Origin: Chondrosia reniformis
Taxonomy: Eukaryota; Porifera; Demospongiae; Chondrillida; Chondrillidae
DNA length: 64,000 nucleotides
Assembly: GCA_947172415.1 (NCBI GenBank)
Contig: OX359194.1
Span: 4,092,001 to 4,156,000, forward strand
Direction: 5' to 3'
The position numbers were made by a program, and so were the translations under genes. Shown one piece after another: positions 7,845-60,741 of this stretch (position 1 is its first letter; each line of letters starts with the position of its first letter). The notes under the pieces were generated by a model that did no database searches, had not been told where the DNA came from, and saw nothing but the letters and a program-made list of their open reading frames with translations.

Positions 7845-7905
7845 CAAGTAGTTCGAGTTAATTCGGGGGCGGCAGCCCCACGAGTTTTTAAACTCGAACT
7901 ACTTG
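7845..7905. repeat. Short hairpin repeat (CAAGTAGTTCGAGTT family)
   Basis: A 61-bp near-palindrome with arms CAAGTAGTTCGAGTT and AACTCGAACTACTTG and a G/C-rich loop. Diverged relatives sit at about 25,778-25,838, 50,571-50,635 and 58,021-58,094, where they lie about 110-130 bp upstream of a small ORF. Role unknown: a transposon end, a boundary or a structured RNA are all possible. Confidence 0.65.
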
Positions 7906-7910
7906 TTTCA

Positions 7911-7999
7911 GGTAACCCAGCCTGGTATTGAACCAGGGCATCCTCATACCTTGTATCCAGACGATATCATCCGGAACACCATCGGTCTCTTGGGTCACA
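7911..7999 (-). ncRNA. tRNA-like sequence, unit 1
   Basis: On the minus strand an acceptor-like stem (GGTGACCCA-type against TGGGTTACC) encloses a T-arm of five-base stem, seven-base loop and five-base stem (CCTGG TTCAATA CCAGG) with B-box match GGTTCAATACC. The outer stem is less perfect here than in unit 2. The anticodon arm is too long for a normal tRNA. Probably a tRNA-derived repeat. Confidence 0.45.
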
Positions 8000-8157
8000 C
8001 AATATATGTTGTAAATGAAGTCCTATTTATATATCACTCACTTTTGACTCTACATATATATGTAATATATAAGATATATAATATGAATATAAGAAATATG
8101 CAATATATATTATATATAAGATATATAATACGTATATAAAATGTATATTTTTTTTCA

Positions 8158-8246
8158 GGTGACCCAGCCTGGTATTGAACCAGGGCATCCTCGTACCTTG
8201 TATCCAGACGATGTCATCCGTAACACCATCGGTCACGTGGGTCACC
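8158..8246 (-). ncRNA. tRNA-like sequence, unit 2 (best preserved)
   Basis: Minus strand, 89 nt. The ends pair perfectly over nine bases (GGTGACCCA with TGGGTCACC). Near the 3' end is a textbook T-arm: stem CCTGG, loop TTCAATA, stem CCAGG. The 5' part holds an A-box-like TGACCGATGG inside a possible D-arm closed by CGT/ACG. The middle arm (CATC...GATG) spans 28 nt where 17 is normal, so there is no clear anticodon. No T-run terminator follows, an A-run does. A tRNA-derived SINE or tandem pseudogene fits better than a functional tRNA. Confidence 0.5.
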
Positions 8247-8402
8247 CAATATATGTTGTAAATAAAGTTCTATTTATATATCACTCACTTTTGACTTTAC
8301 ATATATATGTAATATATAATATGCCTAGAAGATATAAACAATATATATTATATATAAGATATATAATACATATATAAAATGTCTACCGTTTTTCTTTTTT
8401 CA

Positions 8403-8495
8403 GGTGACCCAGCCTGCATGGTATTGAACCAGGACATCCTCGTACCATGTATCCAGATGATGTCATCCGTAACACCATCCGTCATGTGGGTCACC
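8403..8495 (-). ncRNA. tRNA-like sequence, unit 3 (4-bp insertion)
   Basis: As unit 2, but with GCAT inserted (plus-strand reading) beside the T-arm stem, which weakens it. The nine-base outer stem is kept. The same insertion in unit 4 shows they arose by local duplication. Confidence 0.4.
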
Positions 8496-8651
8496 CAATA
8501 TATGTTGTAAATAAAGTTCTATTTATATATCACTCACTTTTGACTTTATATATATATGTAATATATAATATGCCTAGAAGATATAAACAATATATATTAT
8601 ATATAAGATCTATAATACATATATAAGATGTCTACCGTTTTTCCTTTTTCA

Positions 8652-8744
8652 GGTGACCCAGCCTGCATGGTATTGAACCAGGACATCCTCGTACCATGTA
8701 TCCAGACGATGTCATCCGTAACACCATCCGTCATGTGGGTCACC
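8652..8744 (-). ncRNA. tRNA-like sequence, unit 4 (4-bp insertion)
   Basis: Near-identical to unit 3, including the GCAT insertion and the intact outer stem GGTGACCCA/TGGGTCACC. Confidence 0.4.
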
Positions 8745-8898
8745 CAATATATGTTGTAAATGAAGTCTTTTTTTAAATATCACTCATTTTTGACTCTATA
8801 TATATATGTAATATATAAGATATATAATATACATATAAGAATTAAATATAAGATATATAATACATATATAAGATGTATACTTTTTTCTTTTTTCTGGT

Positions 8899-10371
8899 GA
8901 CCCCACAATGAAGATAGAACAGAAGGTAACTGAAGTTCTTAGGTCACTTGAGAAAAAAGGCAAACTCCCCTCTGATTTGAGGAAGAAGGTTCAGAACCAA
9001 AACAGCTCCACACCTCAGCTCTACGGATTACCAAAAATCCACAAGGCCCCTTGAGACCAATTGTTTCCTCCATCAATTCCCCTACCTACAACCTTTCCAG
9101 AGTACCTGGCAGGGGTATTGTCACCGCTATGGGGAAAACTTCTCACTTTTTGCCGGATTCTCATGACTTTGTCAAGAAGATCAGGGAATGGATGTGAACA
9201 CCGAAGATAAATTGATCAGTTTCGATGTAAGGAGCCTATTTACCAAAATACCCATTGATCTATCTCTACAGGTCATCAGGAGATGACTTACGCAAGACCC
9301 TAACTTGGAGCAACGGACACCCTTGGATGTATCCACCATTGCGGATCTTACAGAACTCTGTCTCAGGACAATGTACTTTCTGTACAGTGATGAGTTCCTT
9401 GAGCAGAAGGAAGGGGCAGCCATGGGATCTCCTCTCTCCCTGGTGGTAGCGAACATCTTCATGGAGGAATTCGAAATAGAAGCTCTTCGTGCTGCTGTGA
9501 TAAGGCCTAAGTTGTGGTTGAGATATGCGGATGACACATTTGTCATCTGGAATTATAGTGACGAGCAGCTGGAGGACTTCCTGAGTTTCCTCAATTGAAG
9601 ATATCGCAACATCAAATTTACCATGGAGAAGGAGACCAATGGTTCCTTACCCTTCCTGGATGTGCAAGTAAAGAAGTGCATGGAAAGTTTGGACACATTT
9701 GTGAATAGGAAACCAACACACACAGACAGGTACCTTCACTTTACCTCTCATCACCACCCTAGGGTAAAACCTGGTATCGCACTGTGTCTCAAAGACAGAG
9801 CCGAAAAGATTTGTGAACCAAACTCCAGTAGCTTGGAAAAAGAAAAGGAGCACCTGGAAGGAGTACTTCAAGCTAATGGATACCCTAAACGGGAGGCTCA
9901 CAGACTGCTCAACAGGAGAAGGCAGACTATGGGGAGTGAGGATGAGTGTAAACACAAACTCTTTATTCCATATATAAAGGGCTCAGTGACATGATCGATA
10001 AAAGCTGTAGAAAAATGGGTATCCAGATCATTTTCTCCAAGCAGAGATCACTGAGTACCGTTTTATCCAACCCAAAACAGCCACAACCACCTATGGATTT
10101 CAAGGGTGTAGTTTACCTAATTCCTTGCTCTGAGTGTTCTGCAGTCTACATTGGTGGAATTGGAAGGACCCTGAAAGAGAGATTGGCAGAACACAAACGA
10201 GCAGTCAGGATGGAGGATGTGAACAACGGTATAGCTGTTCACTCCCTCAAGACTGGCCACTCAATTGCCTGGGACAAGGCCAAGATTACACACAGGGATA
10301 CCCTCTGGCAAAGGAGAAAGGTCAAAGAAGCCATCAGGATCCAGAAGAGTCAGGTGAGAATGAATTTAGAT
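8899..10371 (+). pseudogene. Penelope-like element polyprotein (reverse transcriptase + GIY-YIG), decayed
   Basis: Piecing the frames together gives, in order: MKIEQKVTEVL, PQLYGLPKIHK (RT motif 2 of PLEs), PLRPIVSSINSPTYN, SFDVRSLFTKIP (motif A), GAAMGSPLSLVVANIFMEE (motif B), LRYADDTFVIW (catalytic YADD, near 9,520-9,552), NGSLPFLDV, the PLE-typical HFTSHHHPRVKPG, then GVVYLIP...AVYIGGIGRTLKERLAEHKRAV (GIY-YIG nuclease, about 10,108-10,203). The reading is broken by frame changes near 9,053 and 9,190 and by TGA codons near 9,285, 9,596 and 9,990. The N-terminal region is missing. The 3' end stops at the satellite at 10,371 without its terminal repeat. PLEs copy RNA into DNA using a nick made by the GIY-YIG domain. 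This copy is dead. Confidence 0.88.
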
Positions 10372-10645
10372 ATGTACTTCTATGTACTAGTTGTAAAACC
10401 AGTTGCAGAGATATACTTGTTTTATGTACTAGTTGTAGTTCTAGTTGTATGTACTGGTTATGTGGACTAGTTGTATGTACCAGCTGTATGTACTATATAG
10501 TTTTATGTTCTAGTACTAGGTATGCTAGGTATTAGGTAGGTTGTGTGTGTTAGTTGTATGTACTAGTTGTATGTACAAGTTGTATGTACTAGTTGTATGT
10601 ACTGGTTGTATGTACTGGTTGTGTGGACTAGTTTTATGTACTAAT
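10372..10645 (+). repeat. 13-bp satellite, opposite orientation (TGTACTAGTTGTA)
   Basis: A short array in the reverse orientation of everything to its left, squeezed between two PLE pieces. Strings such as VVCTSCMY and LYVLVVCT in translation are satellite read-through, not protein. Confidence 0.92.
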
Positions 10646-27050: not shown

Positions 27051-30000
27051 TGTCTGGACCGAGGAAATGGTTAGGGCACTAATTGATTGCTTTGAGCGAT
27101 CTGAACCCAAAAGAGGTGGCTATCAAAAGCGTTTAGAGCGGGAATGGCTGAGCAAATACCCACATTTGCCTCAGACCGGTCGAACCCTTGCCTTCCAAGC
27201 CAAAAGGAGCTTGGTAGGAGACGGAGTACTGCAAGTAACGGGTAGCCGAGATTTAGATTTGGTTAATGATGCACCGCAAGGTGCCTCTAGAAGGAGAAGG
27301 ATCCAAGGGGTGATCTGGAACCTTCAGAGGGATAATATCCTCATGGAGCTCTACCGAGAAAGTAAGCCCATGGAAAAGGGGTATGCCGAGCGGTTGTACC
27401 AGGCTTGGAATGCTAAAATGCCAGACCATAAAACCACAAAGGTAGTGCTAACTACGAGAATTAGTAGAATCCGAAGAGGTCAAGGTCTCTCGAGACTAAA
27501 CCTTATGGAACTTGACTATTGTGGTTTAGCCACCCTAACTGAGACTGTGGAGGAAGGTGTGGGAGCCCAGGGGCAGGGGGAGCTTCACCAAGTTCAGGCT
27601 GTGACTGATCAAAATGGTGAGCTGCCTGCAGCCCCTGTTGAAACTCCTACAAATGATCATCCTAGTCCCAGGACAAGTGGAAATGATCAACTGATGCAAC
27701 TTTTAGGCAAAGCAAAAAATGCCTGTCTCTGAAAGAAACCTGGAGATTTCTCTGATAGAAAACCCTGGGGGGCAGTGCGGTTCAACCATGGCACTGCTTC
27801 AGGAGGCCAATGATTGGGTGGAGAAAGAGTGGCAGGAAGGCCCTAGGTCAGCCTGGCACCTGAACTGCCTAGTCTACTCTGTTGCTATGGCTGTGAGGGG
27901 AAAAACAACCTACGAATCGCAGCCATGCAACCAGGGAAGGAAATCAGATAATCAGAAGGGAAGTAAGAGACAGGAAGGTCACATAAGTGACAGGAAGGCC
28001 AAAGGCCTTAGGTTTAGAAGACTGCTTGCCTGGTTGGATGTGGAAATAGCGCGTCAACAGAATAATAATCCTATGACCAAACGCCAGAAAGTACTCCAAA
28101 GAAAGCTTAGGAAGGAGTTCCATTCATTAAACCTGAATGTGCTGATCAGAGCTCGGGAACAGACACTGGGGAAACTCAGGGTCTGGACCCTACAAGAGCG
28201 AAGATCGGCTGAACGCAGGAAATTCCAGGAACAAAACCACCTTTGGAATACCCAAAGGAAGTTCCGGATGAATGGCAATGTTCCAACCTCCAATGAAGCT
28301 CCCTCAATTGAGGTAGTAAGAGACTTTTGGACAAAGATTGTAGGTACTGTTGGTAAGGTCAACAAAGACGACCCAGGGGTGAAAGAATGGCTAAAGGAAA
28401 CCAAAAAGAGGGTGGGTAGAACCTCCTCTGAAGGTCCCGATAGCATTGATGAGACCAAACTGAGGAAAGCCTTGAAAAAGGCAAAAAGCTGGTCAGCCCC
28501 TGGGCCGGATGGCATCCACACTTTTTGGTGGAAAGCACTCCCCTCTGCACAGTCTGCCTTGGCAGATGTACTACGGAGGGTGGTGAGCGGAGATCTGTCA
28601 GTCCCAGACTGGCTTACAAGGGGTCGCACTCTACTCATCCCCAAAAAGGGTGACCCGAAAAGTGCGGCCAACTACCGACCACTTACACCTACACTAATGA
28701 TCTTTTACCTATGGCTCAACGAGCCATGAGAAAAGGGAGGTGGGGCTGTGTGGACTGTCTACTGCTGGATCAATCAATCGGTCTAGATGCCAAAATTATG
28801 GGCAAGCCACATAGTGTGGCATGGATCGATTATGAGAAGGCATATGACAGAGTCCCTCACAAGTGGGTGATGAAGGTGCTAAAAACCATCAGGTGCCCAG
28901 GTTGGATCCGGAGGTCTATAGAGCTCTTCTCCAAACACTGGGCTACTGTGCTTGAGTTGAGGACCGTGGGGAAGGTGGTTAGGAGCACCCCTGTTAAATA
29001 TAACAGGGGACTCTTCCAAGGAGACTCCTTATCGCCACTCCTCTTTTGTCTGGCCATAGCTCCCATATCCCAAGTTCTTAACACAACCAAGGGATATACC
29101 CTCTGGCATAATGGGGAAAGGAACACCATGTCACACTTGCTGTACATGAATGACCTTAAGATATATACTGGAGGGCCTGATAAACTCAGGGAAGCCATGG
29201 AATGTGTGGAGAAAACCTCAAATGCCATTGGCATGAGGTTTGGAGTGAGAAAGTGTGGAACAGCTCACATGCAAAAGGGGAAAGTTCTGGCTGGCCCAGA
29301 CAACCCTGAACGCAGTGAAGAATCCATAAGGAGCCTTGAAAAAGGTACTACCTATAAGTACCTAGGGCTAGAACAACTGTTTGATGTAGATGACAGCAAG
29401 ATCAAAGCTTGCTTGATCAATGAATTGAGGAGGAGACTCCACAAAGTGTGGGGCTCTCACCTCAATGGTAAGAATGCTGCAGAAGCCTCTAACATGTTGT
29501 GTGCCTCTCTATTGAGATACTCTTACCCAGTTTTGAAGTGGACTCAAAGTGAGCTTCCAAAACTGGACCGAATGGTGAGAAAGATCATGAGAAAGTACCA
29601 GTATCATCACTATAACTCTGCCATTGAGAGAGTGAATTTGCCTCGCTCTCAAGGTGGTAGAGGGCTCTGTAGTTTTCCTTTGGATCACGACAGGGCTGTT
29701 GTGAATCTGGCAAGATACCTCCATACTGCCAATGATCCACTCATAGCTGTTGTGGTTAAACACCAAAAGTGGCTGGAGTGCTCAAAGCAGAGGAGGACTG
29801 TCTTGAAAGAAGCCAGATTGATACTGAGAAGCCACGGAATAGAACTAGAACCGGAAATGTGGCTGAAGACAGATCCCTCACAAAATAGTGTAAGAGAATG
29901 GAGGAGAGTGGCACGTGAGCTCTGGGAGGCTCAGACTGAAAGGTTAAAAAGTAACCTAGCCGAAAAGTCTCACCAGGGCTCATACCACAGACAAGTCACA

Positions 30001-31012
30001 AATAGGGAGTCTTATGTGTGGCTTTCTGAGGGGAGACTCAGACCTCAAACTGAGGCTCTGATTCTCGCAGCCCAAGATGATGTGCTGCACACTAGGTGGT
30101 ACCAAAATAGGATTCTGAAAAATTCTAGCCTCCTAATGTGCAGAGAATGTGGCAAGGCTATGGAAACGGTCAAACACATACTAAACATGTGTGAGCCCAA
30201 GGGATTTTCTCTCTACAAAGAGAGACATGACCGGGCAATACTGATAGTGTTGTGGAGACGGTTGAAAGAATATGGATTCAAGCAGGAAGAGCCCTGGTAC
30301 CAACTAGAAGCAAAACCAGTCTATGAGAATAGGTCTGTCAAAATCTTGTGGGATCCTAGTATCCCTACAGATGATGAAATGACAGAAAGAAGGCCAGACT
30401 TAGTGGTTGAGGATCGGCTATGTAAGTCCATCTTCATTATTGAGATGTCAGTTCCTACTGACAGCAATATTAATGGAAGATGGCAAGAGAAGTTCCAAAA
30501 GTACCAGAAGCTGGCAGCTGATATGAGGAAACAATTTAGGGGCTACCGAATTAAGGTAGTCCCGATGATAATTGGTGCTTTGGGGACAGTGGACACGCTC
30601 CTGGAAGACCTTAGGGGAATTCCAAAGCTGTCAAAAAGTGCAGTAGAAGTGATGAGAGCCATGCAGAGAACTGTTCTCTGTTTGGCTGTGAGGATATTGA
30701 GGCGACATCTATCTGTTGAGGGATTGGGGCCTGGACGATAAGTAGTCCTGTCCCAGTCCTTGCCTGTCGACCTCTGGAAAGCAGTGGTGGATTGGTGTAT
30801 GGAGGTACTCCCTCCTATTATGACGGTCAACTTTGGCCCGACGTGCACCCATCTGCTGCTGTCGGAGGAGGAAAAGCCGAGGCTTCTGGCTAAAAACCCA
30901 AAGAAAGGAAAACATAACTGACTGAGGGTTGTCCAAGCCAGATACTCCTTGCTTTAGTACACTAAGGCAAGAAGTAACAAGGTTCTCCGTTAAGGCTTTT
31001 GTTTTTCAAGTA
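27051..31012 (+). mobile_element. RLE-type LINE (R2/R4-like), copy A, 5'-truncated and decayed
   Basis: Begins at TGGACCGAGGAAATGG, about 330 bp inside the element relative to copy B, and ends with the same 3' untranslated region and TTAAGGCTTTTGTTTTTCAA terminus. The satellite immediately downstream is the same as that downstream of copy B, base for base over dozens of positions, so A and B are related by segmental duplication and not by two insertions. Confidence 0.9.
27067..30741 (+). pseudogene. RLE-LINE ORF, copy A, inactivated
   Basis: Closely matches the intact ORF of copy B but carries four visible defects. A CGA-to-TGA stop lies at about 27,730 (after GKAKNACL). An 8-bp deletion follows near 27,788 (A lacks TTGATACG). 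A 61-bp deletion near 28,680 removes RT residues equivalent to PIACLNTMYKAVTAYIASEL. The RT active site reads YMND instead of YMDD near 29,145-29,156. The two deletions sum to 69 bp, so the frame is restored downstream and the second half (QRAMRKGRWG... to stop at 30,739-30,741) is open, including the CCHC knuckle and nuclease-like region. Loss of the catalytic Asp means no RT activity even if read-through occurred. Confidence 0.9.
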
Positions 31013-32847: not shown

Positions 32848-33074
32848 CTGTCAGTATGGGCTAACCCCCCGTCTGGCAGCTACACTGGGTTACGTTACGT
32901 CATGAGAATAACAATTTTCAAGACAGGCTGTGGCCTAGGTGCACCAGTGGTGAAGAAAACCCTGGGTCAACCAGAATAGGTGATTCCACTGGTGCCTCAC
33001 AGGTAGATGTACCTGAATGTAATAACCCTTCTTCGGTCCCCGTGACGGGCCAACCAGCCCTATGGACCGAGGAA

Positions 33075-36000
33075 ATGGTTAGGGCACTAATTGATTGCTT
33101 TGAGCGATCTGAACCCAAAAGAGGTGGCTATCAAAAGCGTTTAGAGCGGGAATGGCTGAGCAAATACCCACATTTGCCTCAGACCGGTCGAACCCTTGCC
33201 TTCCAAGCCAAAAGGAGCTTGGTAGGAGACGGAGTACTGCAAGTAACGGGTAGCCGAGATTTAGATTTGGTTAATGATGCACCGCAAGGTGCCTCTAGAA
33301 GGAGAAGGATCCAAGGGGTGATCTGGAACCTTCAGAGGGATAATATCCTCATGGAGCTCTACCGAGAAAGTAAGCCCATGGAAAAGGGGTATGCCGAGCG
33401 GTTGTACCAGGCTTGGAATGCTGCAATGCCAGACCATAAAACCACAAAGGTAGCACTAACTACAAGACTTAGTAGAATCCGAAGAGGTCAAGGTCTCTCG
33501 AGACTAAACCTTGTGGAACTTAACTCTTGTGGTGTAGCCACCCTAACTGGGACTGTGGAGGAAGGTGTGGGAGCCCAGGGACAGGGGGAGCTTCACCAAG
33601 CTCAGGCTGGGACTGAACAAAATGGTGAGCTGCCTGCAGTCCCTGTTGAAACTCCAACACATGATCATCCCAGTCCCAGGACAAGTGGCAATGATCATCT
33701 GATGCAACTTTTAGGCAAAGCAAAAGATGCCTGTCTCCGAAAGAAACATGGAGATTTCTCTGGTAGAAAACCCTGTGGGGGGGTGCGGTTCAACCATGTT
33801 GATACGGCACTGCTCCAGGAGGCCAATGATTGGGTGGAGAAAGAGTGGCAGGAAGGCCCTAGGTCGGCCTGGCACCTGAACTGCCTGGTCTACTCTGTTG
33901 CTATGGCTGTGAGGGGAAAAACAACCAACGAATCACAGCCATGCAACCAGGGAAGGAAATCGGACAATCAGAAGGGAAGTAAGAGACAGGAAGGTCACAT
34001 AAGTGACAGGAAGGCCAAGGGCCTTAGGTTTAGAAGACTGCTTGCCTGGTTGGATGTGGAAATAGTGCGTCAACAGAATAATAATCCTATGACCAAACGC
34101 CAGAAGGTACTCCGAAGAAAGCTTAGGAGGGAGTTCCATTCATTAAACCTGAAGGTGCTGATCAGAGCTCGGGAACAGACACTGGGGAAACTCAGGGTCT
34201 GGACCCTACAAGAGCGAAGATCGGCTGAACGCAGGAAATTCCAGGAACAAAACCACCTTTGGAATACCCAAAGGAAGTTCCGGATGAATGGCAATGTTCC
34301 AACCTCCAATGAAGCTCCCTCAATTGAGGTAGTAAGGGACTTTTGGACAAAGATTGTAGGTACTGTTGGTAAGGTCAACAAAGACGACCCAGGGGTGAAA
34401 GAATGGCTAAAGGAAACCAAAAAGAGGGTGGGTAGAACCTCCTCTGAAGGTCCCGATAGCATTGATGAGACCAAACTGAGGAAGGCCTTGAAAAAGGCAA
34501 AAAGCTGGTCTGCCCCTGGGCCGGATGGCATCCACACTTTTTGGTGGAAAGCACTCCCCTCTGCACAGTCTGCCTTGGCAGATGTACTACGGAGGGTGGT
34601 GAGCGGAGATCTGTCAGTCCCAGACTGGCTTACAAGGGGTCGCACTCTACTCATCCCCAAAAAGGGTGACCCGAAAAGTGCGGCCAACTACCGACCTATT
34701 GCGTGTCTCAACACAATGTACAAGGCTGTCACAGCATACATTGCGTCGGAACTACTCACTTACACCTACACTAATGATCTTTTGCCTGTGGCCCAAAGGG
34801 CCATGAGGAAAGGGAGGTGGGGCTGTGTGGACTGTCTACTGCTGGATCAATCAATCGGTCTAGATGCCAAAATTATGGGCAAGCCACTTAGTGTGGCATG
34901 GATCGATTATGAGAAGGCATATGACAGAGTCCCTCACAAGTGGGTGATGAAGGTGCTAAAAACCATCAAGTGCCCAGGTTGGATCAGGAGGTCTACAGAG
35001 CTCTTCTCCAAACACTGGGCTACTGTGCTTGAGTTGAGGACTGCAGGGAAGGTGGTTAGGAGCACCCCAGTTAAATATAACAGGGGACTCTTCCAAGGAG
35101 ACTCCTTATCGCCACTCCTCTTTTGTCTGGCCATAGCTCCCATATCCCAAGTTCTTAACAGAACCAAGGGATATACCCTCTGGCATGATGGGGAAAGGAA
35201 CACCATGTCACACTTGTTTTACATGGATGACCTTAAGATATATGCTGGAGGGCCTGATAAACTCAGGGAAGCCATGGAATGTGTGGAGAAAACCTCAAAT
35301 GCCATTGGCATGAGGTTTGGAGTGAGAAAGTGTGGAACAGCTCACATGCAAAAGGGGAAAGTTCTGGCTGGCCCAGACAACCCTGAACGCAGTGAAGAAT
35401 CCATAAGGAGCCTTGAAAAAGGTACTACTTATAAGTACCTAGGGCTAGAACAACTGTTTGAGGTAGATGACAGCAAGGTCAAAGCTTGCTTGATCAACGA
35501 ATTGAGGAGGAGACTCCACAAAGTGTGGGGCTCTCACCTCAATGGTAAGAATGCTGCAGAAGCCTCGAACATGTTGTGTGCCTCTCTATTGAGATACTCT
35601 TACCCAGTTTTGAAGTGGACTCAAAGTGAGCTTCCAAAGCTGGACCGAATGGTGAGAAAGATCATGAGAAAGTACCAGTATCATCACTATAACTCTGCCA
35701 TTGAGAGAGTGAACTTGCCTCGCTCTCAAGGTGGTAGAGGGCTCTGTAGTTTTCCTTTGGATCACGACAGGGCTGTTGTGAATCTGGCAAGATACCTCCA
35801 TACTGCCAATGATCCACTCACAGCTATTGTGGTTAAACACCAAAAGTGGCTGGAGTGCTCAAAGCAGAGGAGGACTGTCTTGAAAGAAGCCAGATTGATA
35901 CTGGGAAGCCACGGAATAGAACTAGAACCGGAAATGTGGCTGAAGACAGATCCCTCACAAAATAGTGTAAGAGAATGGAGGAGAGTGGCACGTGAGCTCC

Positions 36001-36818
36001 GGGAGGCTCAGACTGAAAGGTTAAAAAGTAACCTAGCCAAAAAGTCTCACCAGGGCTCATACCACAGACAAGTCACAAATAGGGAGTCTTATGTGTGGCT
36101 TTCTGAGGGGAGACTCAGACCTCAAACTGAGGCTCTGATTCTCGCAGCCCAAGATGATGTGCTGCACACTAGGTGGTACCAAAATAGGATTCTGAAGAAT
36201 TCTAGCCTCCTAATGTGCAGAGAATGTGGCAAGGCTATGGAAACGGTCAAACACATACTAAACATGTGTGAGCCCAAGGGATTTTCTCTCTACAAAGAGA
36301 GGCATGACCGGGCAATACTGATAGTGTTGTGGAGACTGTTGAAAGAATATGGATTCAAGCAGGAAGAGCCCTGGTACAAACTAGAAGCAAAACCAGTCTA
36401 TGAGAATAGGTCTGTCAAAATCTTGTGGGATCCTAGTATCCCTACAGATGATGAAATGACAGAAAGAAGGCCAGACTTAGTGGTTGAGGATCGGCTATGT
36501 AAGTCCATCTTCATTATTGAGATGTCAGTTCCTACTGACAGCAATATTAATGGAAGATGGCAAGAGAAGTTCCAAAAGTACCAGAAGCTGGCAGCTGATA
36601 TGAGGAAACAATTTAGGGGCTACCGAATTAAGGTAGTCCCGATGATAATTGGTGCTTTGGGGACAGTGGAAACGCTCCTGGAAGACCTTAGGGGAATTCC
36701 AAAGCTGTCAAAAAGTGCAGTAGATGTGATGAGAGCCATGCAGAGAACTGTTCTCTGTTTGGCTGTGAGGATATTGAGGCGACATCTATCTGTTGAGGGA
36801 TTGGGGCCTGGACGATAA
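33075..36818 (+). CDS. Non-LTR retrotransposon polyprotein: reverse transcriptase with restriction-like endonuclease
   Basis: 1,247 codons from the first ATG, uninterrupted. N-terminus: two similar Myb-like blocks (about 1-45 and 84-136) sharing the pattern W..., L, S.P...GY..RL...W, P, T, L. Then a Gln/Glu-rich linker and a basic stretch. RT about 460-760: APGPDG 480-485, YRPIACLNTMYK about 539-550, motif A AWIDYEKAYDRVPH with Asp 611, motif B GLFQGDSLSP 671-680, motif C FYMDD with Asp 718-719. CCHC knuckle C1048, C1051, H1060, C1065. Nuclease RRPDLVVED (Asp 1134)...FIIEMSVP (Glu 1149). Role: nicks target DNA and primes reverse transcription from the nick. In-frame sequence is open upstream to a TAA at 32,862-32,864 without any ATG, and the Trp of the first repeat lies four codons before this ATG, so true initiation may be upstream or non-AUG. 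Start chosen as the first ATG. Confidence 0.93.
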   Translation: MVRALIDCFERSEPKRGGYQKRLEREWLSKYPHLPQTGRTLAFQAKRSLVGDGVLQVTGSRDLDLVNDAPQGASRRRRIQGVIWNLQRDNILMELYRESKPMEKGYAERLYQAWNAAMPDHKTTKVALTTRLSRIRRGQGLSRLNLVELNSCGVATLTGTVEEGVGAQGQGELHQAQAGTEQNGELPAVPVETPTHDHPSPRTSGNDHLMQLLGKAKDACLRKKHGDFSGRKPCGGVRFNHVDTALLQEANDWVEKEWQEGPRSAWHLNCLVYSVAMAVRGKTTNESQPCNQGRKSDNQKGSKRQEGHISDRKAKGLRFRRLLAWLDVEIVRQQNNNPMTKRQKVLRRKLRREFHSLNLKVLIRAREQTLGKLRVWTLQERRSAERRKFQEQNHLWNTQRKFRMNGNVPTSNEAPSIEVVRDFWTKIVGTVGKVNKDDPGVKEWLKETKKRVGRTSSEGPDSIDETKLRKALKKAKSWSAPGPDGIHTFWWKALPSAQSALADVLRRVVSGDLSVPDWLTRGRTLLIPKKGDPKSAANYRPIACLNTMYKAVTAYIASELLTYTYTNDLLPVAQRAMRKGRWGCVDCLLLDQSIGLDAKIMGKPLSVAWIDYEKAYDRVPHKWVMKVLKTIKCPGWIRRSTELFSKHWATVLELRTAGKVVRSTPVKYNRGLFQGDSLSPLLFCLAIAPISQVLNRTKGYTLWHDGERNTMSHLFYMDDLKIYAGGPDKLREAMECVEKTSNAIGMRFGVRKCGTAHMQKGKVLAGPDNPERSEESIRSLEKGTTYKYLGLEQLFEVDDSKVKACLINELRRRLHKVWGSHLNGKNAAEASNMLCASLLRYSYPVLKWTQSELPKLDRMVRKIMRKYQYHHYNSAIERVNLPRSQGGRGLCSFPLDHDRAVVNLARYLHTANDPLTAIVVKHQKWLECSKQRRTVLKEARLILGSHGIELEPEMWLKTDPSQNSVREWRRVARELREAQTERLKSNLAKKSHQGSYHRQVTNRESYVWLSEGRLRPQTEALILAAQDDVLHTRWYQNRILKNSSLLMCRECGKAMETVKHILNMCEPKGFSLYKERHDRAILIVLWRLLKEYGFKQEEPWYKLEAKPVYENRSVKILWDPSIPTDDEMTERRPDLVVEDRLCKSIFIIEMSVPTDSNINGRWQEKFQKYQKLAADMRKQFRGYRIKVVPMIIGALGTVETLLEDLRGIPKLSKSAVDVMRAMQRTVLCLAVRILRRHLSVEGLGPGR

Positions 36819-40000: not shown

Positions 40001-42834
40001 TAGTTGAATTTACTAGTTGTATGTACTAGTTGTATGTATTAGTTGTATGTACTAGGTGTATGAAGTAGTAACAATCTGTATTTTCTAGTTTTAAGAACTA
40101 GCTGTATGGATAATTTGTATGTAGTTATATGGACTAGTGGTTTGTACTAGTTGTGTGTAATTGTTGTATCTACTTGTTATATGTACTAGTTGTATGTTCC
40201 AACTGTATGTACCAGTTATATGTACTAGTTGTATGTACTAGTTGTATGCACTAGTTGTACATACTAGTAACTAGTTGTATGTATTAGTTGTATGTACAAG
40301 TTCTATGTACTAGTTCTATGTACTAGTTTTATGCATAAGCTGTATGTCCTAATTTTGTTTACTAGTTTTATGTACTAGTTGTTTGAACTAGTGGAATGTA
40401 GTTAGATGTACTACTTGTATGTACTAGTTGGGTGTTATTTTTGTATGTACTAGTTATATTTACTAGATGTAGTTACTAGTTTTATGTACTCGTTGTATGT
40501 ATAAGTTGTATGTACTAGTAACTATCAGAATATACTAGTTGTATATACTAGTTGTTGGAACTAGTTGTATGTAGTTATATGTACTACTTGTATGTACTAG
40601 TTGTGTGTATTTTTCGTATGTACTAGTAATTAGATGTATATACTTGTTGAATGTTCTAGTTGTATGTGCTAGTTGTATGTACTTGTTGTATATGTGTTCT
40701 AGTAAGTGGTTGGATGCACTAGTTATATGTACTAGTTTTATAAACTAGATGTATGTACTCGTTGAATGTACAAATTTTATGTACTAGTAGTATGTACTAG
40801 TAGTTAATTGTATTTACTAGTTGTATGTACTAGTTGTATGTATTAGTTGTATGTACTAGGTTTATGAAGTAGTAACAATCTGTTTTTACTAGTTGTAAGT
40901 ACTAGCTGTATGGACAATTTGTATGTAGTTATATGGACTAGTTGTATGTACTAGTTGTGTGTAATTGTTGTGTCTACTTTTTGTATGTACTAGTTGTATG
41001 TACTAGCTGTATGTACCAGTTATATGTACTAGTTGTATGTACTAGTTGTAAATACTAATTGTACATACTAATAACCAGTTGTATGTATTTGTTGTATGTA
41101 CCTATTCTATGTACTAGTTTTTGGTATAAGCTGTATGTACTAGTTGTTTTTACCAGTTTTATATATAGTTGTATGTAGTTATATGTACTACTTGTATGTA
41201 CCAGTTGTGTGTAATTTTTGTATGTACTAGTTATATTTACTAGTTGTACTTACTAGTTTTATGTACTAGTTATATGAACTAATTGTATGTACTAATTTTG
41301 TGTAATTGTTGTGTGTATTACTTTTATTTACTAGTTGTAGTTACTAGTTGTATGTACTAGTTGTATGAAGTAGTAACTAGTTGTATGTAGTATTAACTAG
41401 TTGTATGTACTACTTGTATGTACTTGTTGTATGTACTAGTAGTATGGACTAGTGGTATGTACTAGTTGTGTGTACAAGTTGTGTGTAATTGTTCTATGTA
41501 CTAGTTATATTTAGAAGTTGCCTGTACTAATTGTATATACTAGTAACTAGTTGTATGTACTAGTTCTATGTACTAGCTTTTTATACTAGATTTATGTACT
41601 AGTTGTATGTAGTTATAGGTACTACTGGTATGTTCTGGTTGTATGTACTAGTAACTGGATGTATGTTCTGGTTGTATGTACTAGTTGTTTGCACTAGTTG
41701 TATGTAGTTATATGTAATAGTTGTATGCATATACTAGTTGTTTGTAATTATTTTATGTACTAGTTATATGTAGTAGTTGTATGTAGTAACTGTATGTGCT
41801 AGATGTAAGTACTAGTAAGTACTTGCATGTACTAGTTGTATGTACTAGTTGTATGTACTAGTTGTATGGACTAGGTGTATGTACTAGTAACAATCTGTAT
41901 TTACTAATTGTATTAACAAGTTGTATGTACTAGTTATAAGTTATTATATGTACTAGTTGTATTTACTATTTGTGTGAAATTGTGGTATGTACTAGTTATA
42001 TATACTTGTTGCATGTACTAGTTGTATGTACCAGTTGTATGTAATAATTGTATGTATCAGATGTATATTTTAGGTGGAAGAACTAGTAACAATCTGTATT
42101 AACTAGTTGTAAGGACTAGTTGTATGTACTTGTTGTATGTAGTAGTTGTATGTCCTAATTGTACGTAATAGTTGTAAGTACTAGTAAGTAGTTACATGTA
42201 CTGGTTATATGTAACAGTTGTATGAACTAGTTGTATGTACCAGGTGTATGTACTAGTAACAATCTGTATTTACTAATTGTATGTACTAGTTGTATGGACT
42301 AGCTGTTTGTACTAGTTATATGTAATATTTGTTTATACTAGTTGTAGGTACTAGTTGTATGTACAATTATGGAGTTGTATGTACCAGTTATATTTACTAG
42401 TTTTATGAACTATTTGTATGTACTAGTTGTATGTACTAGTTGAAAGTACTAGGTGTGTGTAATGTTTGTATCTACTAAATATATTTACTAGTTGCAGTTA
42501 GCAGTTGTGTGTACTAGTTCTATATAGTATGAATTAGTTGTATGTACTTCTTGTATGGACTATTTGTATGTATTATTTGTATGTACTAGTTATATATACA
42601 GGTTATATGTACTAGTACTATGTCCTAGTTGTAGTACTAGTTGTAAGTATTACATAGTTGTATGTACTGGTAGTATATACCAAATTTTATGTACCAGTTG
42701 TCTCTACTTGTTGTATTTACTAGTTGTATGTACTAGTTGTATATGGTTAAATATATGTACTTGTTGTGTGTACTAGTGTGTGCAATAGATGTATGAACTA
42801 GTTATATGTAATAGTTTTATGTACTAGTTGTATG
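37093..42834 (+). repeat. 13-bp satellite array with several nested duplications
   Basis: Contains the second copy of the LINE-flanking satellite (to about 38,300) and a clean 130-bp tandem duplication (ten units; TTGAACAAGTTGTATGTAAT at about 38,521 and 38,651). The block with TACCAAATTTTATGTACCAG recurs near 32,545, 38,117, 42,685 and 51,768. ACTATCAGAATATACTAG at about 40,521 is an empty insertion site for the Helitron-like element below. Confidence 0.93.
39733..39805 (-). mobile_element. Penelope-like element terminal fragment
   Basis: GGAATAAGGATTTCTTCTAA and the following 50 bp match the left end of the 3,087 copy (same subfamily: GGTTCATCTTTCGACTTTGG, GGGAGCGTCTAGA). Satellite resumes on both sides and no other part of the element is present. 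Confidence 0.7.
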
Positions 42835-45734: not shown

Positions 45735-46501
45735 TCAGGGAGTACGGTAGTACTCCTTATGTAGGGATGACGTGGTTTTTTCGTTTTCCCCATACATCGG
45801 TATAGGAGCAAAATCCCGAAATAGGCCGAAAATCGACAAAACAAGGTTATGTATAACCAAATATACAATATACATACTCTAAATAGACCTTAAAAGCAGG
45901 CGAATATGTTCTGCTGGCGAAATAATAAACTTTAAAAATTCCCATTTTCGTCTTCTTCATATTCTTCTTCTTATTCTCATTCTTCTTCTTCTTTGTCAGC
46001 CATAACTAAAAAACTATATAAGGTTTTGGACTAATGGTTAAACGAAACGATTGCAAATTTTCCGAGCTGTATTCTTTTGCAGAAGCGAGAGCAATAGCGC
46101 TATTATTGAGTATGACAGTTTTCATGGCCCCAGAGTCAAGACCTCAATAAATCTCCATTTTAATGACGTCATATTCAGTCGAAGATTGCGAAATCAAAAT
46201 GGGTTTAAATAAAATCGAATTCCTAGCTTATGCTCCATAAAAAGAACAGAAACTAGAGAAAAATAAGCATTTTCTACAGAAATAGTGAAGATGTAGGGAT
46301 GGCACAAAAAGCACATAAACAAGAAAGGGATGTTACACAGTGAAGCATTAGCTATGCATGAATCCTACAAGCAAGGGTGTAGTATGATTCATGCATATAT
46401 AGCTAATGCTTCACTGTGTAACATCCCTTTCTTGTTTATGTGCTTTTTGTGCCATCCCTACATCTTCAATATTTTTGTAGAAAATTTTTATTTTTCTCTA
46501 A
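45735..46501 (+). mobile_element. Non-autonomous Helitron-like element, copy 1
   Basis: 767 bp. Starts TCAGGGAGTACGG and ends TTTCTCTAA, between an A and a T, without target duplication. Removing it restores CAGAATA|TACTAG, which is exactly the uninterrupted satellite at 40,526 and about 47,911. The 5'-TC, 3'-CTRR (CTAA) and A/T insertion are Helitron signatures. The left end holds a perfect GGAGTAC/GTACTCC palindrome. The right third is one huge hairpin. No Rep-helicase gene, so it would depend on an autonomous partner. Confidence 0.65.
46254..46500 (+). other. Long hairpin (arms 111 and 115 nt) at the 3' end of the Helitron-like element
   Basis: Arms 46,254-46,364 and 46,386-46,500 are almost fully complementary, with a 21-nt loop that itself can pair CTACA/TGTAG. 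Landmarks: AAGCACATAAACAAGAAAGG and CCTTTCTTGTTTATGTGCTT. The arms contain a 91-codon frame at 46,330 that is a by-product of the palindrome. Transcription would give long double-stranded RNA. Confidence 0.85.
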
Positions 46502-48585
46502 TACTAGTTGTATGTACTAGTTGTGTGTATTTTTCGTATGTACTAGTAACTAGATGTATTTACTTGTTGTTGTTACTAGTTTTATGTACTATTTATATGA
46601 ACTAATTGTATGCACTAATTGTGTGTAATTGTTGTATGTATTACTTATATTTACTAGTTGTAGTTACTAGTTGTATGTACTAGTTGTATGTAGCAGTAAC
46701 TAGTTCTATGTAGTAGTTTTTTATACTAGATGTATGTACTAGTTGTAAGTAGTTATAGGTACTACTGGTATGTTATATTTGTGCATAATCTTATATATTA
46801 GTTATATTTGGTAGTTGTAGTTACTTGATTAATGTACTAGTTGTATGTTCAGGTTGTATGTAATAATTGTATGTACCAGATGTATATACTAGGTGTAAGA
46901 ACTAGGAACAATCTGTATTTACTAGTTGTAGGGACTAGTTGTATATACTTGTTGTATGTAGTAGTTGTATGTCCTAATTGTAGGTACTAGTTGTAAGTAC
47001 TAGTAGGTAGTTGCATGTACTGGTTATATGTAACAGTTGTATGAACTAGTTGTATGTACCAGGTGTATGTACTAGTAACAATCTGTATTTACTAATTGTA
47101 TGTACTAGTTGTATGTACTAGTTGTATGTAATAATATGTACTACTTTTATGTGCTAGTTGTGAAAAGTGGTTGTATGTATTAGTTATATGTACTAGTTGT
47201 ATGTACTAGTTGTATGTACTAGTTGTATGTATTAGTTGTATATATGTACGAGTAACTAGTTGTATGTACTAGTTGTATGAACTAGTTCTCTCTATTAGCT
47301 TTAAGTACTAGTTGCAGGAAATTGATGTATTTAATAGTTTTAAGTACTAGTTGTATGTACTAGCTGTATATACTAGTTATAGGTCCTAGTTGTATGTACT
47401 AGTTGTATGAAATAACTGTATGTACTAGTTATATGCAATAGTTGTATATAATAGTTGTATGTACTAGTTGTATGTACTGGTAACTAGTTGTATGTACTAG
47501 CTGAGTGTACTAGTTGTATGTAGTTATATATACTACTTGTATGTACAAGTTGTGTGGATTTTTTGTATACTAGTTAAATTTGTAGCTACTAGTTTTATGT
47601 AGAAGTTGAATGTACTAATAACTAAATGTGTGTAGTAATTGTATGTACTAGTTGTTTGTACTTGTAAGTAGTTGCATGTACTAGTTAGATGTACTTGTTG
47701 TATGTAATAGCTGTATGTACTAGTTATATACATTAGTTGTATATACTTTTTGTATGTACTAGTTGTATGTACTAGTTGTATAAAATAGTTCTATGTCCTA
47801 GTTTTATATACGAGCTGTATGTACTATTTGTATGTACAAGTTCTATGTACTAGTTGTAGGGACTAGTGTATGTACTAATTGTATATACTAGTTGTATGTA
47901 CTAGTAACTATCAGAATATACTAGTTGTATGCAGTTATATGTACTACTTGTATGTTCTAGTTGTGTGTATTTTTCGTATGTACTAGTAACTAGATGTATG
48001 TACTTGTTGTAAATGTGTTCTAGTAAGTAGTGGATGCAATAGTTATATGTACTAGTTGTATGAACTAGATATATGTACTAGTTGAATGTACAAATTTTAT
48101 GTACTAGTAGTATATACTAGTAGTTAGTTGTATTTACTAGTTGTATGTACTAGTTGTATGTATTAGCTGTATGTACTAGGTGTATGAAGGAGTGGCAATC
48201 TGTATTTATATACCAGTTTTAAGTACTAGCTGTATTTTAATTTTTTTATGTATTATATGGACTAGTTTTATGTACTAATTGTTTTTAGTAGTTTTATGTA
48301 TTCGCTGTTTGAACTAGTTGAATGTAGTTATATGTACTACTTGTATGTACAAGTTGTGTGCAATGTTTTTATGTACTAGTTATATTTACTAGTTGTAGTT
48401 ACTAGTTTCATATACTAGTTGTATGTACAAGTTGGATGTACTAGTATCTAATTGTATGTATTAGTTGTGAGTAGTATATAGTTGCATGTATAAGTTCTAT
48501 GTACTAATTGTATGTACTAGCTCTATGGATTAGTGTATGTACTAATTGTATGTACTAGTTGTATGTACTAGTAACCCTCAGAATA
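46502..48585 (+). repeat. 13-bp satellite array
   Basis: Plus-oriented units parallel to those at 43.3-45.7 kb (for example GAACTAGTTCTCTCTATTAG at about 47,279 against about 44,327). An empty Helitron-like target site lies at about 47,906-47,918. Confidence 0.92.
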
Positions 48586-49352
48586 TCAGGGAGTACGGTA
48601 GTACTCCCTATGTAGGGATGACGTGGTTTTTTCATTTTCCCCATACATCGGTATAGGAGCAAAATCCCGAAATAGGCCGAAAATCGACAAAACAAGGTTA
48701 TGTATAACCAAATATACAATATACATACTCTAAATAGACCTTAAAAGCAGGCGAATAAGTTCCGCTGGCGAAATAATAAACTTTAAAAATTCCCATTTTC
48801 GTCTTCTTCATATTCTTCTTCTTATTCTCATTCTTCTTCTTCTTTGTCAGCCATAACTAAAAAACTATATAAGGTTTTGGACTAATGGTTAAACGAAACG
48901 ATTGCAAATTTTCCGAGCTGTATTCTTTTGCAGAAGTGAGAGCGATAGCGCTATTATTGAGTATGACAGTTTTCATGGCCCCAGAGTCAAGACCTCAATA
49001 AATCTCGATTTTAATGACGTCATATTCAGTCGAAGATTGCGAAATCAAAATGGGTTTAAATACAATCGAATTCCTAGCTTATGCTCCATAAAAAGAACAG
49101 AAACTAGAGAAAAATAAACATTTTCTACAGAAATAGTGAAGATATAGGGATGGCACAAAAAGCACATAAACAAGAAAGGGATGTTACACAGTGAAGCATT
49201 AGCTATGCATGAATCCTACAAGCAAGGGTGTTCTATGATTCATGCATATATAGCTAATGCTTCACTGTGTAACATCCCTTTCTTGTTTATGTGCTTTTTG
49301 TGCCATCCCTACATCTTCACTATTTTTGTAGAAAATTCTTATTTTTCTCTAA
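48586..49352 (+). mobile_element. Non-autonomous Helitron-like element, copy 2
   Basis: The same 767 bp as copy 1, shifted by exactly 2,851 bp with no length difference and a handful of substitutions. The flanking satellite is also duplicated (at least 45,530-46,575 against 48,381-49,426), so this is a segmental duplicate and not a second transposition. The 3' hairpin is kept (49,105-49,351), with a slightly changed loop. A 71-codon frame at 48,902 is not conserved in copy 1 and is not considered a gene. Confidence 0.65.
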
Positions 49353-58399: not shown

Positions 58400-60741
58400 C
58401 ACATACAAATAGTACATACAACTAGTACATACAACTAGTATATACAACTGGATCATATAACTAGTACATACAGCTAGTATATACTTACAGTTAGTGCATA
58501 TAAATAGTACATACAACTAGTACATATAACTAGTACATTCAACAATTTCACACAACTAGTAAATTCAACTAGTGAATATAACTAGTTACTAGTACATACA
58601 ACTAGTGCATACAACTAGTACATATAACTAGTACATATAGCTAGTGCATACAACTAGTACATATAACTAATACATATAGCTAGCACATACAATGAGTACA
58701 TATAACTAGTACATACATCAATTTCACACAACTAGTACATAAAACTAATATATACATGGTACTAGTACATACAACTAGTACATACATCTAGGTAATAGTA
58801 CATACAACTAGTACATACACTAATCCATAGAGCTAGTACATACAATTAGTACATAGAACTTATACATACAACTATATACTACTTACAACTAATACATAAA
58901 ACTAGATACTAGTACATCCAACTTGTACATACAACTAGTATATGAAACTAGTAACTACAACTAGTAAATATAACTAGTACATACAAACATTGGACACAAC
59001 TAGTACATACAAGTAGTACATATAACTACATTCAACTAGTTCAAACAGCGAATACATAAAACTAGTAAAAACAATTAGTACATAAAACTAGTCCATATAA
59101 TACATAAAAAATTAAAATACAGCTAGTACTTACAACTAGTATATAAATACAGATTGCCACTCCTTCATACACCTAGTACATACAGCTAATACATACAACT
59201 AGTGCATACAACTAGTAAATACAACTGACTACTAGTATATACTACTAGTACATAAAATTTGTACATTCAACTAGTACATACATCTAGTTCATACAACTAG
59301 TACATATAACTATAGCATCCACTACTTACTAGAACACATATACAACAAGTTCATACAACAAGTACATACATCTAGTTACTAGTACATACAAAAAATACAC
59401 ACAACTAGTACATACAAGTAGTACATATAACTCCATACAACTAGTATATTCTGATAGTTACTACTACATACAACTAGTACATACAAATAGTACATACAGC
59501 TCGTATATAAAACTAGGACATAGAACTATTTTATACAACTAGTACATACAACTAGTTACTAGTACACACAACTAGAACATACAAAAAGTATATACAACTA
59601 ATATATATAACTACTACATGCAGCTATTACATACAACAAGTACATATAACTAGTACATGCAACTACTTACAAGTACAAAAAACTAGAACATACAATTATG
59701 ACATACAACTAGTACATATAACAATTACATACAACAATTAAACAAAACAAGTACATACAACAATTAAACACAACAAGTACATACAACTAGTACATATAAC
59801 TAGTACAGGCAACCATTTACTAGTACATACAACTAGTATATACAATTAGTACATACAACTAGTATATACAGCTAGTACATAAAATTAGTCCATAAAACTA
59901 GTAAATTCATCAATTTCCTGCAACTAGTACTAAAAACTAATACAGAGAACTAGTTCATGCAACTAGTACATGCAACAAGTTACTCGTACATATAGACAAC
60001 TAATACATACAACTAGTACATACAACTAGTACATACAACTAGTACATATAACTAATAAATACAACCACTTTACACAACTAGCACATAAAACTAGTACATA
60101 TTATTATATACAACTAGTACATACAACTAGTACATACAACTAGTACATACAACTAGTACATACCATTAGTAAATACAGATTTTTACTAGTACATACACCT
60201 GGTACATACAACTAGTTCATAAAACTGTTACATATAACCAGTACATGCAACTACCTACTAGTACTTACATACAATTAGGACATACAACTACTACATACAA
60301 CAAGTATATACAACTAGTCCCTACAACTAGTAAATACAGATTGTTCCTAGTTCTTACACCTAGTATATACATCTGGTACATACAATTATTACATACAACC
60401 AGAACATACAACTAGTACATTAATCTAGTAACTACAACTACTAAATATAACTAGTATACTAAATTACACACAACTATAACATACCAGTAGTACCTATAAC
60501 TACTTACAACTAGTACATACATCTAGTATAAAAAACTAGTACATAGAACTAGTACATACAACCAGTACATACAACTACTTACTAGTATATACAATTAGTA
60601 CAGACAACTTGTACAAATAACTAGTTACTGCTACATACAACTAGTACATACAACTAGTAACTACAACTAGTAAATATAAGTAATACATACAACAATTACA
60701 CACAATTAGTAGTTCATATAACTAGTACTTGTAGCTTTGAT
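58386..60741 (-). repeat. 13-bp satellite array, right arm of the second inverted duplication
   Basis: The first few hundred bases mirror 49,800-50,264 (for example ATACTTACAGTTAGTGCATA at about 58,481). Near 59,450 TATATTCTGATAGTTACT is the complement of the block that hosts the Helitron-like insertions, here without the element. Confidence 0.92.

Follow-up and report, generated by a model that had tools for sequence, protein, structure and literature searches.

A 767-bp element in a satellite of the sponge genome is almost certainly of Helitron type, and its family is well supported as Helitrons with an extreme 3′ hairpin and an autonomous partner, that is, as a variant within a known superfamily. 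Our best explanation of the whole is that the 3′ end of this Helitron would fold as single-stranded DNA, that the fold would terminate transposition and that the two hairpin arms would be homogenised, a reading to which we give a probability of roughly 0.6. To our knowledge, what is known of the use of the 3′ hairpin and of the intermediate in Helitrons comes mostly from a single reconstructed element of bats. Each sponge arm has some six to eight times the length of the whole 19-bp palindrome of that element, Helraiser, and the family offers hundreds of sequence matches, an autonomous partner, long arms and a built-in tracer, namely changes that appear in both arms if a copy is dispersed and not if it was amplified passively; with this tracer and the copy number, folding of the intermediate becomes testable from genome sequence. 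In the openly accessible literature searched (titles and abstract starts), long, flipping or parvovirus-like Helitron hairpins and sponge Helitrons of this kind were not found, and neither the paired arm changes nor the invertible long loops were described there.

The window, by which we mean the whole 64-kb stretch of DNA analysed, contains two copies of the element (Table 1). Copy 1 begins with TCAGGG, ends with CTCTAA and stands between the flanks ...CAGAATA and TACTAG; a sequence-only reading had proposed a Helitron-like element at these positions, and its extent proved exact. The same reading had claimed an exact empty site elsewhere in the array, and CAGAATATACTAG was found three times in the window; with up to one mismatch there were five matches against 0.38 expected. 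The wider flanks of the three sites align over the join at ~79–84%, as does much of the satellite. Further copies with the flanks of the window element lie on contigs C6 and C8, and these, together with copies 1 and 2, were treated as a single insertion that multiplied along with the satellite. An Rfam scan of the window at gathering scores gave no match.

Table 1 Features of the element and its target sites in the window
Feature	Positions	Strand	Evidence or remark
Non-autonomous Helitron-type element, copy 1	45735..46501	+	Ends common to dispersed copies; host A left, T right; empty site
Same element, copy 2	48586..49352	+	98.2% identity to copy 1 across 767 bp, same flanks; carried by satellite duplication
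5′ terminal hairpin (GGGAGTAC / GTACTCCT)	45738..45757	+	Fold z −2.4; 8/200 shuffles as good
5′ copy of asymmetric inverted motif ATGTAGGGATG	45759..45769	+	Inverted match to 3′ end
Left arm of giant 3′ hairpin	46254..46363	+	Inverted repeat; motif TGTAGGGAT at 46292-46300
Loop and inner part of hairpin	46364..46390	+	Short loop, common orientation
Right arm of giant 3′ hairpin	46391..46500	+	One base from terminus; inverted motif CATCCCTACAT at 46453-46463
Empty target site CAGAATATACTAG in satellite	40526..40538	+	Exact
Empty target site CAGAATATACTAG	47912..47924	+	Exact
Empty target site CAGAATATACTAG	59441..59453	−	Exact

The genome searched comprised 117,379,552 bases in 15 contigs; on contig C15, a COX1 that looks sponge-like has eight TGA codons in its reading frame, which are read through. 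With the whole element as query, the best 40 of 1085 candidate places were scored and 41 long matches, 89–100% identical, were obtained; exact 22-base 5′ ends numbered 193 genome-wide, and many copies with the same ends lie outside the window duplication. The 5′ junctions were read from the first 100 of these 193 matches and the 3′ junctions from the first 100 of 122 and the first 100 of 268. An A adjoined the element in 99 of the 100 listed 5′ rows, the remaining one, a variant of a satellite flank, having a C. Merging three near-duplicates, one of them with the C at the junction, reduced 77 distinct 5′ flanks to 74, and among the matches listed all 74 ended in A, 58 of them with T before it. 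The 200 listed 3′ matches consisted of 108 at the inner arm and 92 external ones, from which 65 distinct junctions were kept: CTAG in 34, CTA in 20, CT in 7, CTAA in 3 and another end in 1. A recount at 13 bases in both lists gave 64 junctions (33 CTAG, 20 CTA, 7 CT, 3 CTAA and 1 other). Among the matches listed, 64 of the 65 junctions were readable as running on into a host T, a real constraint because random sequence fits one such 3′ parse at 0.49, that is, only about half the time; in the copies with CTA/T, one base is assignable to either element or host. The target thus appears to be TA/TA-like. Most fetched copies begin with TC, and 37 of the 65 junctions end in CTRR (CTAG or CTAA) while 28 depart from it, 27 with CTA or CT and 1 otherwise. 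The 5′ TC and 3′ CTAA ends that had been read from the window element are right for this copy, but CTAA is rare in the family (3 of 65 junctions), CTAG being commonest.

The claim of insertion between A and T with no duplication was borne out by the junction counts and by three unrelated families of empty sites that lack a target duplication: the window satellite, a ~254-bp tandem array that is the empty-site context of the autonomous copy on contig C4, and a second satellite, where the joined flanks had one exact match (C10:3545978) and a reversed control also had one match with one mismatch allowed. These sites bear on a different reading, which takes the hairpin for an independent fold-back MITE that duplicates TA (TA-GAGA...TCTC-TA) and inserted itself at another element's end. 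A TA does end the arms on both sides, and TA ends 58 of the 74 distinct 5′ flanks among the matches listed; yet both TAs are kept at the empty sites, so that nothing was duplicated, and the hairpin travels with the 5′ end. Of the 30 external 3′ ends listed for contigs C1 and C4, 20 are preceded on their strand, 0.4–2.5 kb upstream, by a 5′ end that matches exactly, and the other 10 lack such an exact match; the autonomous copies carry the hairpin too. We regard the separate MITE as highly improbable. A TA-duplicating MITE was rejected by the empty sites, and the inverted ends of such an element were not found in the element as a whole. One locus, L080, was considered as a nested insertion with an empty site and rejected, as its right flank does not resume; in it, one copy's tail is followed, head to tail, by a truncated copy and then by another one, which makes it a chimera or a serial insertion. 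Positions 7902–8903 of the window hold a 249-bp tandem repeat whose consensus resembles, by eye, the reverse complement of the host array of the C4 autonomous copy.

The sequence-only reading had suggested looking for a partner that encodes Rep and helicase, and the genome has one, whose ends are related to those of the window element and which shares its hairpin; this check and the one for further copies with A/T insertion both favoured the reading. The PF14214 profile gave 133 genome matches in several groups, and downstream of the one at C4:3329045 lay hairpin arms at 93–96% identity. The autonomous copy there (C4:3323670-3334567) is 10,898 bp long with an open frame of 2510 aa, and a copy on contig C5, 11,012 bp long with a frame of 2555 aa, is 98.8% identical to it at a different site; both were read from end to end. 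The first 440 bp of the autonomous copies match the window element at 75–78%, starting from its first base, and their 3′ hairpin has 156-bp arms and a 485-bp loop; in the C4 copy the arms are identical over 156 bp. A Pfam scan of the C4 frame in three pieces found Helitron_like_N (86 bits), PIF1, Pif1_2B, OTU and DUF6570 and no endonuclease family at E 0.001; the C5 frame has its PF14214 match, the domain scan having been run on the C4 frame. Helraiser aligns with the Rep region of the C4 copy at E 1e-8, over what we read as the HUH and two-tyrosine segments. We propose that these ~11-kb Rep-helicase-OTU relatives would move the non-autonomous element.

Elsewhere in the group of C4:3329045, the hairpin was present in parts only in the regions read of C2a and C2c and was not found in those of C2b, C2d and C13:3435200. 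The Helitrons of groups A to E were rejected as partners, since 5.2 kb of 3′ sequence at 7 loci, four of which show their own element end, contained no such hairpin. Group-A Helitrons (four loci) have a compact 3′ hairpin of ~50 nt and end in ...TTGTTT, which shows that a giant hairpin is not required for Helitron movement in general; one group-A Rep had no match to Helraiser at E 0.01. In another Helitron group on C5, PF14214 matches of identical score at 4589442 (L067), 4601407 (L068) and 4613372 follow one another at intervals of exactly 11,965 bases; this head-to-tail array is possibly a rolling-circle concatemer. The autonomous frame 3545-7099 of L097 contains, ~290–300 residues in, GDIESNPGP, which presumably resembles a 2A self-processing peptide.

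A giant hairpin reaching the 3′ terminus had been read from the window sequence, and the measured arms, which make up the 3′ third of the element, are 110 nt long, 94% complementary and spaced by 27 nt, ending one base short of the terminus. The fold of this hairpin as single-stranded DNA has an energy of −119 kcal/mol against −22.4 ± 3.0 for shuffled sequences (z −31.8; 0/200 as good). The hairpin of this family has CTAG at its inner base and commonly at the outer base too. In L071, L073, L075 and L086, parts of the hairpin are lost or rearranged, which is what the instability of a long palindrome would lead one to expect.

The reading of a folded intermediate is carried by changes that are shared between the two arms. 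Sixty short-loop loci were fetched, and 7 without a complete matched hairpin (L038, L069, L073, L075, L083, L085 and L086) were dropped; the remaining 53 copies had two readable arms, each of which was compared with the majority sequence of its group. Twenty-seven of the copies are dispersed, with distinct flanks, and were taken as transposed; 26 were amplified inside two satellites. The dispersed copies had 110 arm changes, and at 20 sites both arms carried the identical change, where 0.87 such sites would be expected, whereas among the 132 arm changes of the satellite-amplified copies no site was common to both arms, 0.44 being expected (Fisher, 3.5e-9 for dispersed versus satellite). The 20 instances represent 18 distinct changes. 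When L022 (27 changes) and L071 (19 changes), which have broken arms, were left out, the counts were 91 changes with 19 shared for dispersed and 105 with none for satellite copies. The majority arms of the two subfamilies differ at 8 positions, each of them in both arms.

Because paired changes occur in dispersed and not in satellite-amplified copies, homogenisation goes with transposition on the whole, and the paired changes of the jumped copies suggest that the hairpin folds during transposition. As judged from these alignments, homogenisation probably takes place in the folded transposition intermediate. Repair or recopying of the folded strand would explain the data most simply, with compensating selection and in-place conversion as weaker rivals. 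If selection acted alone, each pair would be two independent substitutions, favoured since the hairpin is needed as a terminator or as dsRNA. Such selection for pairing could replace copying and would, we infer, likewise confine the paired changes to lineages still transposing, yet it requires 18 distinct double hits among close relatives, and L087 has just one change per arm, the identical one. In addition, a 110-bp stem should tolerate a single mismatch, which weighs against selection for pairing; we consider selection alone quite unlikely. Beside the mode of spread, satellite and other copies may also differ in chromatin and age.

In the alignment of ten long-loop copies, the right arm being truncated in one, 39 columns varied, and changes in both arms were seen in six of these (30, 58, 63, 74, 91 and 113): columns 58 and 113 in C4 and C5, column 91 in C8 and C6, and column 74 in C8 alone. 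The remaining variable columns are changed in one arm or readable in one arm only. Three long-loop copies, L111, L112 and L113 (C9, C7 and C14b), have in common one-arm changes in columns 109 and 129, reflecting either three transpositions without homogenisation or one insertion passively duplicated; their 3′ flanks are alike, suggesting one duplicated insertion.

The loop between the arms can also be inverted. Between the C4 and C5 autonomous copies the 485-bp loop is inverted over its full length, and in a search with the C4 3′ end (best 40 of 991 candidates scored, 141 rows, strands read by eye) 25 orientable places with long or intermediate loops stood 12:13 by orientation; C11:4007885 and C11:4081320 are perhaps one duplicated insertion among them. 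Ten long loops, eight fetched and those of C4 and C5, stood 6:4, the other 15 places resting on search rows. The tree of the ten long-loop copies contains at least four inversions, two of which separate well-supported sisters (0.997 and 0.972). The 21-nt short loops were inverted in 2 of 27 dispersed copies (L071 and L079) and in 0 of 26 satellite copies, so that 13 of 25 long or intermediate loops compare with 2 of 27 short ones (Fisher, 5.5e-4).

This difference by loop size would be expected if duplex arms must bend to meet, as in recombination or gene conversion between the inverted arms in place, after insertion; homogenised arms and inverted loops would then both arise with no role for the hairpin in transposition. 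The sister copies C4/C5 and C8/C6, which differ in loop orientation, also fit such an origin. It is, though, hard to apply to copies with a 21-nt loop, yet dispersed ones have the 20 paired sites and satellite copies none among 132 changes. We therefore take recombination in place to be a serious minority possibility, which may hold for the inversions and fail for homogenisation, because the paired changes of 21-nt-loop copies are found in dispersed ones only.

In AAV, the terminal hairpin occurs with its loop in two orientations, flip and flop. A hairpin transfer of the parvovirus kind would have the folded 3′ end prime the second strand and Rep nick the inner CTAG, each round copying one arm and flipping the loop. 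The homogenised arms of dispersed copies, the 12:13 ratio of long and intermediate loops and the CTAG at the inner and commonly the outer base of the hairpin agree with it, and the Rep is of HUH type, as is that of AAV, which acts on the terminal hairpin according to the excerpted text of PMC5714925. Dispersed short-loop copies stand 25:2 instead of 1:1, so there is no flip in every round there, and we judge the transfer unlikely. A flip in every transposition round was rejected for short loops; the loop-size difference argues against it and leaves recombination in place a fair explanation of the inversions. The likeness to AAV and other parvoviruses (an HUH Rep, a terminal hairpin and two loop orientations) is an analogy only, as a linear hairpin-primed genome is not evidenced here and short-loop copies are not 1:1. 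A Helitron lineage with a parvovirus-like end, in which HUH Rep acts at the basal CTAG of a folded intermediate and copying renews an arm and flips the loop, seems to us possible but rather doubtful; if true, arm identity and loop orientation would be a record of past transposition events.

The 5′ end also has a potential hairpin. Taken alone its fold is weak, being reached by 8 of 200 shuffles, and one stem pair that is G-C in the window element is A-T in both autonomous copies, a paired change. Just outside this hairpin, at base 25, begins a motif with an inverted match of 11–12 bp to the 3′ end in the window element and both autonomous copies; when the first 60 bases were shuffled 2000 times, a match of 11 bp was reached 3, 0 and 1 times, respectively. 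When the outer 60 were compared with the outer 160 bases, this subterminal motif was the single inverted match. The 767-bp element contains the motif TGTAGGGAT three times, once at base 26 and twice in the hairpin, where it runs in both directions. Each 11-kb autonomous copy has five, one at base 26 and four within the hairpin; elsewhere in the 767-bp element or the 11-kb copies it was not found even with one mismatch. TGTAGGGAT is thus the likeliest candidate for a Rep recognition site.

The family has both features of the Helitron superfamily, a RepHel partner with the same kind of ends and A/T insertion without duplication. With Helitron1, represented by Helraiser (Helibat1), it shares RepHel, the 5′ TC, CTAG as the commonest 3′ end, the A/T insertion without duplication and a 3′ palindrome. 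In the portions of PMC4778049 consulted, the 19-bp palindrome of Helraiser lies 11 nt from the end and the ends of bat Helitrons contain no inverted repeats; in contrast, the sponge stem of 110–156 bp extends to the terminus, the 3′ end is ragged and a 5′ hairpin is present. The short hairpin 10–12 nt from the 3′ end, with none at the 5′ end, that defines Helitron1 is not what we found. Helitron2 is described in the excerpts of PMC3627910 and PMC5148889 as having a 5′ terminal hairpin and a short asymmetric inverted motif near both ends, and FoHeli1/2 of Fusarium, according to the same excerpts, start with TCAG. The sponge element likewise has a 5′ hairpin, an inverted motif at both ends and a TCAG start, and hairpins are present at both ends as in Helitron2, the 5′ fold being weak; however, its 5′ motif starts at base 25 and not inside the hairpin within 0–2 bp of the 5′ end, the 3′ motif lies inside the giant hairpin, and the 3′ end is CT(A)(G), not ATTTT. 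A defining feature of each is missing here, so that a placement in Helitron1 or in Helitron2 would be tentative. Helentrons, as defined in the accessible part of PMC5148889, have a RepHel protein and an endonuclease; the sponge family has the former in common with them, and no endonuclease domain was found in the C4 frame at E 0.001.

In the folded-intermediate reading that we prefer, Rep would nick at A/TC, with TGTAGGGAT serving as its recognition site, and the helicase would displace the element as a single strand, whose 3′ part would snap into a duplex of 110–156 bp with the cut site CTAG/T at its base. This duplex would stall the helicase and present the end for the second nick, which is the role ascribed to the 19-bp palindrome of Helraiser, here on a far larger scale. 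By that analogy, we lean slightly towards the giant hairpin being a terminator; the sequence-only reading had likewise suggested a rolling-circle stop signal or, alternatively, a possible source of long dsRNA. Mismatches between the folded arms would be repaired or recopied, giving matching arms in each new copy, and small shifts in nick position at the foot of the hairpin would produce the ragged CTAG, CTA and CT ends beside the host T. These ragged ends form a natural mutant series for the choice of the 3′ end.

The window also holds two copies of a reverse-transcriptase-like frame, at 27067–30741 and 33042–36818, one intact with 1258 aa and one broken into several, and a frame at 9991–10470 gives the impression of a GIY-YIG domain as in Penelope-like elements.
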